From NCBI RefSeq assembly GCF_024171865.1, contig NZ_JAMTCN010000001.1:186001-250000 (forward strand): 64,000 bases of DNA. The letters are read 5' to 3'. Shown here piece after piece: positions 5,106 to 11,025 of the stretch. A program made the position numbers and the translations under genes. The notes under the pieces are model-generated. The model saw nothing but the letters and a program-made list of their open reading frames with translations, did not search any database and was not told the origin of the DNA. The stretch's first letter is position 1. Each line of letters begins with the position of its first letter. This DNA is from Prauserella aidingensis (GTDB lineage: Bacteria; Actinomycetota; Actinomycetes; Mycobacteriales; Pseudonocardiaceae).

Positions 5106-5111
5106 TAGGGT
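5106..5111 (+). promoter_or_regulatory. Putative -10 element for the riboswitch transcript
   Basis: TAGGGT lies just before the first riboswitch helix. The same hexamer precedes several other starts in this window at a fixed distance, so transcription probably begins near 5118. Confidence 0.45.
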
Positions 5112-5316
5112 GGCGGTGCTGGTGGTTCACCCGCGCGGCCCGACCGGGCCCACGGGTGAGGCAAGAGGGAACCCGGTGCGAATCCGGGACTGCCCCGCAG
5201 CGGTGAGCGGGAACGACCGCCGTCAACGGCACTGGACCGTGAGTCCGGGAAGCGACGGCCAGTAGGAACCCCCGGCCACGGCCGGGATCGCCCGCGAGTC
5301 CGAAGACCTGCCACCG
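5112..5316 (+). ncRNA. Cobalamin (B12) riboswitch
   Basis: Contains the conserved core of the AdoCbl riboswitch: GGTGCGAATCCGGGACTG followed by CCCCGCAGCGGTGAGCGGG, and the B12 box AGTCCGAAGACCTGCCA at about 5298-5314. Ends in a stem closing GGTGCTGGT with CCACCGGC. It lies 140 bp before a MetE-like gene on the same strand; B12 riboswitches classically switch off B12-independent methionine synthase when cobalamin is available. A 10-bp GC stem (5318-5341) directly after the aptamer may be part of the expression platform; no T-tract follows it. Confidence 0.93.
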
Positions 5317-5317
5317 G

Positions 5318-5341
5318 CGCGCGCACCACCCGGTGCGCGCG
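5318..5341 (+). other. Hairpin immediately 3' of the riboswitch aptamer
   Basis: GCGCGCACC (5319-5327) pairs with GGTGCGCGC (5332-5340) around a four-base loop, extended by one C-G pair. Candidate expression-platform element; lack of a U-run argues against a simple intrinsic terminator. Confidence 0.4.
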
Positions 5342-5456
5342 GGTCCGAGGTCTCGCGGGTGGACCGGGCGGACGGGCCGGGCGGCTGCCCGGCCGGACTG
5401 CGCAGCTCCCTCGAGACCGTCGGCGCCCGTGTCGACGAGCTCGCGAGGAGAGAGCA

Positions 5457-7556
5457 TTGACCGGCAGTATCGGTTCCACCGTCCTGGGATATCCCCGCAT
5501 CGGCCCCGGCAGGCAGTTGCCGCGGGCACTCGAACGCTACTGGACCCACCGCACCGGCGAGTCCGAACTCCGCGCCGTCGCCCGGGAACTGCGGGCTCGC
5601 ACGTGGCGGGAGTTGTCCGCCGCGGGGCTCGACTCCGTGCCGGGCGGTACGTTCTCGTACTACGACCACGTGCTCGACACCGCCGTGATGGCGGGCGCGG
5701 TGCCGGACCGGTTCCGCGCACTGGGACTCGGCCCGCTGGACACCTACTTCGCCATGGCGCGAGGGACCGACGCGGTGGCGCCGCTGGCCACGGCACCGTG
5801 GTTCGGCACGCGGTACCACCACGTCGTGCCGGAGATCGGCCCCGAGACCCCGCTCACGGTCGCCGACAACACGCCGGTGCGGGACTTCCTCGAGGCGCTA
5901 CGGCTGGGTGTGACCACCCGTCCGGTGCTGCTCGGCCCCGTGACGTTCCTGCTGTCGTGTGCCCCGGCACCGGGTTCGCCCGCGGGGTTTCGCCCCCTGG
6001 ACCGACTCGGTGACCTGCTCGGCGTCTACGCCGTGATGCTCCGCGAACTGCACGCGGCCGGAGCGGAGTGGGTGCAGCTCGACGAACCCGCGTTCGCCAC
6101 CGACCGGACCGGGGCCGAGTGCGACGCGTTGCGCGACGCCTACGACGTCCTCGGCGCGCGGGACCGCAGGCCCGCGATGCTGACCGCCGTGCCGTACGGC
6201 GACCCCCGCGAGGCGTTCGGCGCACTGGCCGCCACCCCGGTCGAGGGCATCGCGGTCGACCTCGTCTCGGAGACGTCCACGGCGAACACGGTCGTCGGCA
6301 CACCGGGACTGTCGGACAAGACGCTCGTCGCCGGCCTGGTCGACGGGCGCAACGTGTGGCGCACCGACCTCGACACGGCGTTGGTCACGGCGGCCACACT
6401 GCTCGGCTCGGCACGGGAGGTCGCGGTGGGCACGTCCTGTTCGCTGCTGCACGTGCCCCACGACGTGGACCTGGAGCCGGCGTTGGACCCGCAGGTCGCG
6501 CCGTTGCTCGCGTTCGCCCGACAGAAGGTGCGGGAGGTCGTGACCCTCGGTGCGGCCCTACGCCGCGGTCCGGACGTCGTGGCACGGGAGTTGACCCGCG
6601 GACGCGAGGTCCTCGCCGCGCGACGGGCGTCACCGCCGACCGACCGCGGTGTGCGGGCCCGGCTGGCCACGTTGCGGCCCGCGCATCTGCGGCGGCCCGC
6701 GTACGCCACCCGGCGGGCCGCACAGGAGCGGACCGGACGGTCACCGGAGGAGCCGATCGACCCGCTGCTCGATACGGTCCACGAGTGGGCCGGCACGGGC
6801 GTGATCGACGACGAACGCTACCGGGAGCGGATGCGTGCGGGGGTGGAGGACGTCGTGCGCCTGCAGGAGGCGCTCGGGCCGCAGGCCGCGGAGCTCGCCG
6901 CGCCGTCGGTGGCCGAGCGGCGCGACGACGGACTCGTGCGCTTCGTCGCGGGTCTGTTGGAGGGCGTGGTGTCGACCCGGCACGGCTGGGTGCAGCACGG
7001 CGGCGCCCACTGTGTCCGGCCGCCGATCGTGGTGGGGGACGTGAGCAGGCCGGCCCCGATGACGGTCGAGTGGGTCACCGGGGCCCAGCGGCTCACCACC
7101 TCCGCGGTGAAGGCCGTGCTGCCCGGACCTGCGACGATGCTCGCCTGCGCGTTCCCGCGCGACGACGTCCCCGCGGTCGACACGGCGGCGCAGCTGGCAC
7201 TCGCCCTGCGCGACGAGGTGCGAGACCTCGAGGCGGCGGGGATCCGCGAGATCCAGGTGGACGAGCGCGCGTGGTGGCGGCGACTGCCGCTGCGGGAACG
7301 CGCCCGGCGCGACCATCTGACGTGGGCCGCCGAGGCGTACCGCGTGGCGACCTCGGGCGTGGCTGTGTCGACGCGGATCCGCACGGACCTGGGCGATACG
7401 GGTCTCGACGAGACGCTCGAGGCGACCGCCGCGCTCGACGCCGACGTGACGAGCGGCGCCGGGACGGCAGGCGTGACCCGCACCCACGCCGACGTTCTGG
7501 AGATGTGGCGCAACGCCGTGTCGGACCCGGAGTCGGCGGACCGGCCGTCGTCGTAG
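5457..7556 (+). CDS. metE: MetE-like protein, catalytic residues lost (degenerate B12-independent methionine synthase)
   Basis: 699-aa homologue of cobalamin-independent methionine synthase. TTG start with GAGGAGAGA upstream. The N-terminal barrel is well kept (GYPRIG, SYYDHVLDTA, LDTYFAMARG, VVDGRNVWRTDLD-like LVDGRNVWRTDLD, SCSLLHVP). The C-terminal barrel keeps CVRPPIVVGDVSRP and IQVDE but the TIGS(Y/F)PQT loop reads EEPIDPLLDT, the HGEPERND segment reads AAPSVAERRDD, and the zinc motif HTH(L/M)CY reads STRIRTDLG, with neither His nor Cys. The final segment carrying the third zinc Cys (NPDCGLKTR) is absent, so the protein is about 50-60 residues short. Frame is intact throughout. Under a B12 riboswitch; cannot be a normal MetE by known chemistry. 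Confidence 0.85.
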   Translation: MTGSIGSTVLGYPRIGPGRQLPRALERYWTHRTGESELRAVARELRARTWRELSAAGLDSVPGGTFSYYDHVLDTAVMAGAVPDRFRALGLGPLDTYFAMARGTDAVAPLATAPWFGTRYHHVVPEIGPETPLTVADNTPVRDFLEALRLGVTTRPVLLGPVTFLLSCAPAPGSPAGFRPLDRLGDLLGVYAVMLRELHAAGAEWVQLDEPAFATDRTGAECDALRDAYDVLGARDRRPAMLTAVPYGDPREAFGALAATPVEGIAVDLVSETSTANTVVGTPGLSDKTLVAGLVDGRNVWRTDLDTALVTAATLLGSAREVAVGTSCSLLHVPHDVDLEPALDPQVAPLLAFARQKVREVVTLGAALRRGPDVVARELTRGREVLAARRASPPTDRGVRARLATLRPAHLRRPAYATRRAAQERTGRSPEEPIDPLLDTVHEWAGTGVIDDERYRERMRAGVEDVVRLQEALGPQAAELAAPSVAERRDDGLVRFVAGLLEGVVSTRHGWVQHGGAHCVRPPIVVGDVSRPAPMTVEWVTGAQRLTTSAVKAVLPGPATMLACAFPRDDVPAVDTAAQLALALRDEVRDLEAAGIREIQVDERAWWRRLPLRERARRDHLTWAAEAYRVATSGVAVSTRIRTDLGDTGLDETLEATAALDADVTSGAGTAGVTRTHADVLEMWRNAVSDPESADRPSS

Positions 7557-9215: not shown

Positions 9216-10667
9216 TCAGCGCCGCGAACGGGCGGGCGCGCGGGTGAGCGTCAGCACGATCAGGCCCAGCACGATCAACGCCGCGGCGAACACGATCATC
9301 CGGGGCAGGTCCTGCGCCGCGCCGGTCTCGGCGAGCTCGTCCGGACCACCGTCCTGTGCGGTCACGTCGCCGCCCGACTTCTGCTGCGGCTGCTGGTGCG
9401 GTTGCGGCGACTGCTGCGGAGCCTGTTCGGCGGCCCGCTTCGGCTCCTCGTGCACCGCGAGCCGGTCGGTGCCGTCCGATTCGGACGCGGCGTCGTCTCC
9501 GGATGCGGCCTCGTTCTCGGATGCCGGGTCGTTCTCGGTGCCGTCCTGGCCGCCGCCGTCGCCGTTGCCCGCGACGGCATTCGGCTGGTGCGTGGCCGTG
9601 CCGTCGTCCCCGGCCTCGGCATCGTCGGTGTCGTTGCCGCGTCCCTGGTCGCCTCCGTCGTCCTCGGCCTGCGGATCGGCCGGCTCCTCGCGGCCCGCCG
9701 AGTCGTCCTCGGCCGGGGCGTTCGGGCTGTCGGCCTGCTCCGACTCGGGAGTGGACGGTTCCGGGGCCGCGTCGGACTCGGGTTGCGGCGAGGGCTTCGG
9801 GCTGGGCTCCGGTTTCGGAGACGGTTCGGGTTCGGGCTCCGGTTCGGGCTCCGGCTTGGGCTCCGGCTCCGGCTCCGGTTTCGGTTCGGGCTCGGGCTCG
9901 GGCTCGGGCGAACGGTCCGCTTCGCCGGCCGCGAGCCGCTTGAGCTGGTCCATCGAGCCGTTGAACGTGTTCTGGTCGCCGGGCATCGGACCGTGGTCGT
10001 TGTACTGCCAGATCGTGTAGTGCCCCCAGCCGTTGGGCAGCTCGCCGACGCGCTCGTTGTAGCGGGCGATGAACAGCGGATGGTCGCTGCCGAAGCGGCC
10101 GGTGTTGCCTGTGCAGGTCTTCCACCAGCTCGTGGTCGTGTAGATCATCGGCCACCGGCCGGTCTTGGCGTGGATCCGCTCGGAGAAGTTCTCGATCCAC
10201 CGGACCATGCTGCCGTGCGACCGGCCGTAGCAGGGGTCGCTGCCGTACGGGTTGTACTCCATGTCCAACAGTGGCGGCAGCGTCTTGCCGTCGGCCGACC
10301 AGCCGCCGCCGTTGGCGACGAAGTAGTCGGCCTGGGGCGCGGCGGCACCGACGTCCGGGCGCGCGAAGTGGTAGGCGCCGCGGATCATGCCGACGTCGTA
10401 GGCGCCGTTGTACTGCTGGGCGAAGTACGGGTTGATGAACCCGGTTCCTTCGGTGGCCTTGATGTAGGCGAACCGCGCGCCGGTGTTCCACGCGTGCTTC
10501 CAGTTCACGTTCTGCTGGTGCCCCGAGACGTCGATCCCGGGCACGCTCTCGGGCGCGGCGGCGGCCCGCGAGCCGCTCAGCAGCGTCAGGGAACCGAGCA
10601 GCATCGCCCCCAGCGCGGCCAGGGTCAACGAGATCCGCGAGGCGGTGCGCAGGCCGTTCGCCGGCAT
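9216..10667 (-). CDS. Secreted GH25 muramidase with Pro/Glu stalk and LAETG wall anchor
   Basis: 483-aa peptidoglycan hydrolase. A Sec signal peptide ends near residue 38 (SRAAAAPE). The GH25 lysozyme domain spans about 43-245 with catalytic acids Asp46 (GIDVSGH) and the D-x-E pair Asp135/Glu137 (LLDMEYN). A long linker follows, first EP/KP repeats then an acidic Ser/Gln-rich stretch, and the C-terminus is LAETG (445-449), a hydrophobic helix and an Arg-rich tail. That is a cell-wall sorting signal; LAxTG is the motif preferred by class E sortases of high-GC actinobacteria. ATG start with GGAGGAACACG upstream. No sortase gene is in the window. Confidence 0.92.
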
Positions 10668-11025
10668 CGTGTTCCTCCCACGCCGCGCGCGGGCGGGCCC
10701 GGGCGCGGTATTCGGTTCGGACCGCTCTCGACATACGCGCGGCCCTGGTCTGCACAAGCGCCCCCAGGATCGGTTCACCTGGTGCCGGTGTAAACATGTG
10801 GGTCGGGTGTGGCGCATGTGACTTCTGAGGTTTACGCAGGTCAGGTGACATCCGGCGACGTCGCAGTGCAGCCGAAGTCACCTCCGTGGGGGACGCCTAC
10901 GAGGGGATGGTCTGTCGTCTCGTCGGCGGTACGGGCCGGGCCGTTCCGCGGGACGGTTCTGACGGATTCGTGACATCCGGACCGGCGTGGGCGCATCGCC
11001 GGGCGGGCGCTCCTACGGTGGCGGC
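10668..11025. promoter_or_regulatory. Divergent intergenic region, no gene seen
   Basis: 358 bp between the muramidase and the epimerase start. It holds GTAAAC (10790) and its complement GTTTAC (10830) plus two CATGTG repeats (10795, 10815), which could be a regulator site for the muramidase, and TACGGT at 11014-11019 as a -10 box six bases before the epimerase ATG. I see no gene. Confidence 0.4.

Follow-up and report, generated by a model that had tools for sequence, protein, structure and literature searches.

Genes under riboswitch control are usually assumed to serve the metabolism of the sensed vitamin directly. For MetE, the cobalamin-independent methionine synthase, the zinc ligands and the residues S433, E484 and D599 are named in the available text of PMC7857596, and the folate contacts and a candidate proton donor are given in that of PMC539065. 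According to the same portion of PMC539065, the sites of MetE's own N-terminal barrel were obliterated during evolution, and the accessible part of PMC7857596 reports MesB-like proteins of Chloroflexales in which FSHG, YCDQ or YREQ replace the zinc ligands. Among the matches listed in our literature search, there was no description of a two-domain MetE that is zinc-less in this way, and none concerned a methionine synthase of Prauserella. Here we describe such a gene in a stretch of 64,000 nucleotides from Prauserella aidingensis, the whole of which is called the window.

A two-domain MetE homologue and its lost sites

An earlier note on this DNA had proposed an intact frame of 699 codons for the gene, and this is borne out, with AGGAG at 5446-5450 preceding the TTG start. 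The gene and its parts are as follows.

5457-7556, + strand: putative MetE-derived pseudoenzyme, 699 codons with a TTG start; three relatives have this frame open as well
5475-6656 (boundary approximate), + strand: N-terminal (beta-alpha)8 barrel that retains its fold and conserved core; most 10-residue blocks have pLDDT of at least 90
5787-5822, + strand: folate-facing part of the N-barrel, eroded; most of the working MetE that were read have EMTKWFDTNYHY here, the window ATAPWFGTRYHH
6741-6767, + strand: place of the lost IGS(F/Y)PQT homocysteine loop and first C-barrel strand; alignment gap, residues 429-437 with pLDDT below 50
6882-6932 (limits approximate), + strand: replaced DVLVHGEPERND segment, second C-barrel strand, from alignments; residues 479-484 with pLDDT below 50
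7374-7397, + strand: region of the former HTH(L/M)CY zinc motif, now RIRTDLGD; RIRT[DQ]LGD in all four genomes with this form
7455-7553, + strand: short divergent C-terminal tail; pLDDT below 50 from residue 669

The product, a two-domain MetE homologue of 699 residues, matches PF08267 with 318 bits and PF01717 with 186 bits, the latter match ending at model position 238 of 324. Against the curated whole-protein MetE models it reaches 561 bits for TIGR01371 (cut-off 929.95) and 629 bits for NF003556 (cut-off 541). Both Pfam domains, the two-barrel fold and syntenic orthology to an intact metE are present, which makes the protein a MetE by descent. The core methionine synthases MesA-MesD consist of a single catalytic barrel with a zinc site and without the N-domain, and the protein falls outside them because its N-domain is present and its zinc site absent. 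The same genome encodes two short MetE-like (Meth_synt_2) proteins, at C16:55881-56852 (L002) and C34:45685-46236 (L003); the second scores above the NCBIfam NF005085 cut-off and the first has no NCBIfam match at E 0.01.

A site-by-site comparison with E. coli MetE (from NC_000913) bears out the earlier claim that every zinc ligand is gone: H641, C643, E665 and C726 are aligned with D, G, A and an absent position. All four genomes with this degenerate form have D or Q, then G, A and absence at these places, leaving none of the four ligands. Also lost are K20, K117, G432, S433, R515, W561, E605 and H694; we take K20, K117, R515, W561, E605 and the IGS loop to be contacts of the folate tail, the pterin or homocysteine, on our own conversion of T. 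maritima to E. coli numbering. D599, C516, R17 and the CVRPP hairpin are retained. Within the homocysteine-binding trio, S433 is absent, D599 is kept, and E484 lies in an ambiguously aligned stretch, opposite E or Q in one alignment and A in another. About 60 residues are missing from the end of MetE, and the tail at 7455-7553 has no PDCGLK and no DIHSP counterpart, the segments of the proton-donor His and the last zinc Cys being missing. The remnants CVRPPI, GDVSRP and IQVDE that had been pointed out earlier are found in the protein, and the IGS(Y/F)PQT homocysteine loop, reported lost, falls in a gap of the alignments.

At a level of 95% or above, 68 intact MetE share 267 conserved columns. 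Of these, all four degenerate proteins keep 150; the N-part accounts for 88 (of 99) and the C-part for 62 (of 168). The eroded segment at 5787-5822 holds six of the 11 lost N-barrel columns (E. coli 114, 116, 117, 120, 122 and 125). The folate-side barrel had been described as well kept, which holds for its conserved columns but not for its folate contacts, and because these contacts are gone as well the loss is broader than zinc. Judged from the alignments, the protein is a descendant of MetE in which the known catalytic sites are lost. By known MetE chemistry it could not work, in agreement with the earlier view that activation of homocysteine through zinc is no longer possible, and it would probably lack catalysis.

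It might be supposed that folate or homocysteine is still bound, buffered or sensed, as D599, C516, R17 and the CVRPP hairpin stay in place. However, the tail, pterin and homocysteine contacts listed above, IGS loop included, are replaced (contacts as described in the available text of PMC539065 and PMC7857596). The 11 lost N-barrel columns include the lysines that contact the tail and the pterin, which speaks against the folate-binding protein that the earlier note had offered as one role, and we regard any such binder or sensor as improbable.

An AlphaFold2 model (pLDDT 85.5, pTM 0.88) has a confident N-barrel; it was made from an alignment of 41 rows, 38 of them intact MetE, and is pulled towards the MetE fold for that reason. 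The 29 best Foldseek matches are all MetE, with a TM of 0.87 to Candida MetE. In our reading of the C-part, strands 3-6 and the long hairpin stay and strands 1, 2, 7 and 8 are missing or unmodelled, so that about half a barrel is predicted and no closed catalytic barrel seems left. This half-barrel may expose hydrophobic edges, which would favour association with a partner or with itself. Its hairpin region carries H509-x4-H514-x4-C519, common to the four proteins.

Origin in the genus and selection after the loss

The degenerate form occurs in four of the seven genomes of the genus (the window genome, G003, G005 and G002), at a single syntenic locus; of the named relatives, Prauserella isguenensis is nearest at 92%, followed by P. 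halophila at 78%. An assembly or sequencing error is ruled out by its presence in the three other genomes, which share the losses and contradict the idea that the zinc motifs might reappear in a corrected sequence. G004 carries an older, less truncated degenerate form, with HTHLRA in the zinc motif, His for the terminal Cys and a full-length end, and this copy is likewise without the homocysteine loop and the adjoining segment. At the same locus G006 has an intact, zinc-competent MetE. An additional intact MetE lies at another locus in G002 and G004, and G001 has that one only. Genes for an xdh-like protein and a TetR protein adjoin the locus copy in all five relatives; within the stretches fetched, an acyl-CoA dehydrogenase gene is also found nearby in G003, G005 and G002, and a permease gene in G005, G006 and G004. 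At 9216-10817 (- strand) the window encodes what reads from its sequence as a secreted, lysozyme-like protein with a long Glu-Pro/Lys-Pro repeat linker; it has homologues in G003, G005, G002 and G004, over part of the length only in three of them.

A tree of the locus copies made by a quick method, (G006 intact,(G004 degenerate,((window,G003),(G005,G002)))), has SH-aLRT values of 99-100 and a long stem (0.55) followed by short crown branches; the placement of G004 is less sure because its protein has an unusual amino-acid composition. The zinc, homocysteine and folate sites thus appear to have been lost in the line leading to the five copies, from a working metE in place. The G004 copy (L092 / L093) retains H641, with D for E665 and H for C726, and might therefore hold a metal with three ligands. 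This older form, together with the two short Meth_synt_2 proteins of the window genome, one of them above its family cut-off, could be taken to favour a cryptic methionine synthase in which other residues, or a partner such as one of those short proteins, supply the zinc ligands. Such an enzyme is very improbable in our judgment, since the window form has no ligand of the four and neither homocysteine loop nor proton-donor segment, and MetH is present in all seven genomes.

In a sample of the order, a profile of the four proteins finds the form (E at most 1e-262) in 4 of 397 genomes, all of this genus; across 249 genomes of the family the four score at least 1480 bits, and the next best, at 885, is the intact G006 protein. 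Family-wide homologues were gathered by profile searches, and 84 distinct loci were read for zinc motifs, about 70 other listed loci, mostly mid-scoring, being left out. Both motifs are present in 75 of those read, five are the cases from this genus and four are split or cut (the second half matches separately in L168, L171 and L172, and only the first half is found in L170). In a set of 80 loci, HTHxCY occurs in 77 and is absent from L004, L005 and L054. The metE frame of Nocardia crassostreae NBRC 100342 (L054) ends early, and the metE in two matching parts (L168) belongs to the family genome G055, which has another copy with both zinc motifs. Since the searches met the form in a single genus, it spans little evolutionary depth, and the invariance of a residue across four sequences carries little information.

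Conservation among the relatives, which the earlier note had suggested checking by dN/dS, is seen, and neutral decay is not. In a pairwise codon model, the six pairs of degenerate genes have dN/dS values of 0.075, 0.075, 0.092, 0.112, 0.114 and 0.115, with likelihood ratios of 241-362 against dN/dS = 1. Three pairs of intact MetE from the genus give 0.059-0.071. Controls from the same genomes give 0.041 and 0.047 for metH (two pairs; G005 and G002 are 95.5% identical in this protein), 0.015-0.025 for the acyl-CoA dehydrogenase and 0.045-0.086 for TetR (three pairs each). Six pairs with dS above 2, joining degenerate, G006 and second-locus copies, were excluded, and dN/dS at kept columns was not used because it is low by construction. 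Constraint falls short of that on an ordinary enzyme, the values lying somewhat above those of working MetE and, mostly, of metH and the two neighbour genes. Simulated neutral evolution produced means of 7-16 stops at 0.25-1.0 changes per site, and none of 300 runs was stop-free at any of three divergences; the four genes contain no stops, are 698-705 codons long and differ in length by whole codons, mostly in the linker.

All four proteins have lost 64 of the columns that working MetE conserves. There dN/dS is 0.12 for the sister pairs (likelihood ratio 40.5) and 0.11 for the window-G005 pair (26.4), which means that the replacement residues are in turn conserved. The distribution of constraint differs as well. 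The C-part is tighter in three pairs of working MetE (0.04-0.05, against 0.08-0.10 for the N-part; 60 of 60 and 59 of 60 bootstraps in two of the pairs), whereas the two degenerate sister pairs have 0.05-0.06 in the N-part and 0.09-0.10 in the C-part. The N-part is tighter in all six degenerate pairs, one cross pair being nearly equal (0.101 N, 0.108 C), and the shift is clear in one sister pair (0 of 60 bootstraps reversed) and weak in the other (7 of 60). Codon comparison shows that, since the loss, purifying selection on the four genes has been nearly as strong as that on working MetE; lost catalytic residues and selection after their loss, the two marks of a pseudoenzyme, are both found.

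A slowly decaying pseudogene whose frame is open by chance could draw on redundancy, with MetH in every genome and an intact MetE elsewhere in G002 and G004, and on the gathering of length differences in the linker. It is hard to reconcile with dN/dS of about 0.1 at likelihood ratios above 240, with open frames where 7-16 stops are expected, and with a leader and start region that are kept. We consider it, like the early stage of decay that had been entertained before, improbable. A stronger alternative, and the main rival to a binding or regulatory role, is a new reaction: after its remodelling, and perhaps with the gain of a metal site, the C-terminal half-barrel would catalyse a different B12-linked conversion. 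Renewed constraint at the replaced active-site columns (0.11-0.12), the long stem with its short crown branches and the shared H509-x4-H514-x4-C519 argue for such an enzyme, but strands 1, 2, 7 and 8 are gone or unmodelled, no closed TIM-barrel pocket seems left, and in each of the six pairs constraint is looser in the C-part than in the N-part. We hold a new enzyme to be doubtful, though a serious candidate.

The cobalamin riboswitch and the B12 setting

The leader of the gene contains the following features.

5106-5329, + strand: cobalamin riboswitch aptamer RF00174, 82.8 bits against a gathering threshold of 31.5, full model 1-189
5352-5357, + strand: CTCGCG, a possible anti-Shine-Dalgarno arm; exact complement of CGCGAG at 5442-5447, beside AGGAG at 5446-5450
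5442-5450, + strand: Shine-Dalgarno region CGCGAGGAG, which overlaps the arm that may sequester it; unchanged across six leaders

The riboswitch that had been reported ahead of the gene thus looks intact. It is the sole Rfam match at gathering score within the 64 kb window, and the gene starts 127 bases downstream of its end. RF00174 also matches 5′ of the gene in all five relatives at the locus (74.0-82.3 bits), in G006 partially, over model positions 45-169 only. Pairing of CTCGCG with CGCGAG might sequester the Shine-Dalgarno region; the CTCGCG arm is identical in five of six aligned leaders, and G002 has a single C-to-T change with which a G-U pair is still possible. A scan for promoters and terminators found none. 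Mean column identity over the six leaders is 82%, and the aptamer core and Shine-Dalgarno region are largely invariant. Such conservation could mean that selection acts on the leader RNA, or on an overlapping gene, with the protein incidental; this is the least credible of the explanations weighed here, since constraint falls on amino acids over 699 codons and varies by domain and site class.

Because the gene is retained behind an intact-looking B12 riboswitch, the B12-linked role proposed earlier is likely. The old riboswitch is kept on the mRNA, and we infer that synthesis of the protein would take place chiefly under B12 scarcity. A look elsewhere in the genome, also suggested earlier, found MetH, which is present in all seven genomes of the genus, and no working MetE in the window genome, G003 or G005 (drafts, 99-100% complete). 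A second full MetH above the family cut-off occurs in two of the seven (G004:C36:1260-4787 and G005:C5:1608-5135), and CbiC of B12 synthesis is found in all seven, in two pieces in G006. As each of the three genomes without a working MetE has a single MetE-like gene and no second MetE was found, a partner or inhibitor of working MetE is ruled out there.

In G001, G002 and G004, the other intact metE is adjoined by a gene for the alpha subunit of class Ia ribonucleotide reductase with its own riboswitch. This arrangement of riboswitch, class Ia alpha gene, riboswitch and intact metE, a 'B12-independent island', lies at L108 3032-9976 in G001, at L107 in G004 and at L109 in G002; the beta subunit of the reductase was checked in G001. 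Synteny of the island by its downstream neighbour yielded only distant homologues outside G001. The class Ia reductase was not found in the window genome, G003 or G005, which along with G006 show a distant match only (25-26%); in the window genome this match is the B12-dependent class II enzyme.

A proposed role and known systems

On balance we lean towards a selected pseudoenzyme that arose from a working metE, is made in B12 scarcity and binds a partner rather than making methionine. The sites would have been dismantled in the line to the five Prauserella-type copies, and renewed purifying selection would have followed on a protein whose N-terminal barrel is complete and whose catalytic barrel is reduced to about half. 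Riboswitch-driven synthesis, mainly when B12 is scarce, would supply a protein that binds a protein or small-molecule partner non-catalytically through its conserved N-barrel and exposed half-barrel. Such binding would help a cell that depends on B12, through MetH and, in the window genome, also a class II ribonucleotide reductase, to pass through a B12 shortage. The protein probably has a new job when B12 is short; binding as that job, and the nature of the partner, are our best guess and are offered as a proposal. More tentatively, and with less confidence than we place in the selected pseudoenzyme as such, the new role in B12 shortage may be owed to selection on a dead methionine synthase, whose ruined catalytic barrel would have acquired a new surface or metal site (such as H509/H514/C519 of the hairpin region), in a cell without a working MetE or a B12-independent ribonucleotide reductase.

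The switch and the protein have thus outlasted the chemistry, and the intact orthologue, an intermediate and the end form are found within one genus, so that the change of an enzyme into something else can be traced and tested here. Because the product passes the NF003556 cut-off, automatic annotation could call such genomes B12-independent for methionine, which they probably are not.

Among known systems, the trypanosome prozyme, a dead paralogue of AdoMet decarboxylase, is likewise catalytically dead yet in use, but the available text of PMC6221367 has it forming an active complex with a living paralogue, and three genomes here show no living MetE. The MesB-like proteins of Chloroflexales, as covered by the accessible part of PMC7857596, are also members of the MetE superfamily without zinc ligands. 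They are core proteins of another family without the N-domain, whereas the window gene has two domains, a traced intact orthologue and measured selection. MetE itself (E. coli, T. maritima, Candida, Arabidopsis) has in common with the window protein the two barrels (TM 0.87) and the N-barrel core; the fungal and plant structures matched by Foldseek are 36-38% identical to it, and the intact metE of the same genus also has a B12 riboswitch in front. Unlike MetE, the window protein is without zinc ligands, homocysteine loop, pterin-stacking Trp and proton-donor His, and its C-barrel is truncated. The N-barrel of MetE, on the portion of the literature available, is a further parallel, as a duplicated barrel whose fold outlived the obliteration of its zinc and homocysteine sites. 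In the window gene the loss extends to the site of the other barrel, the catalytic one.
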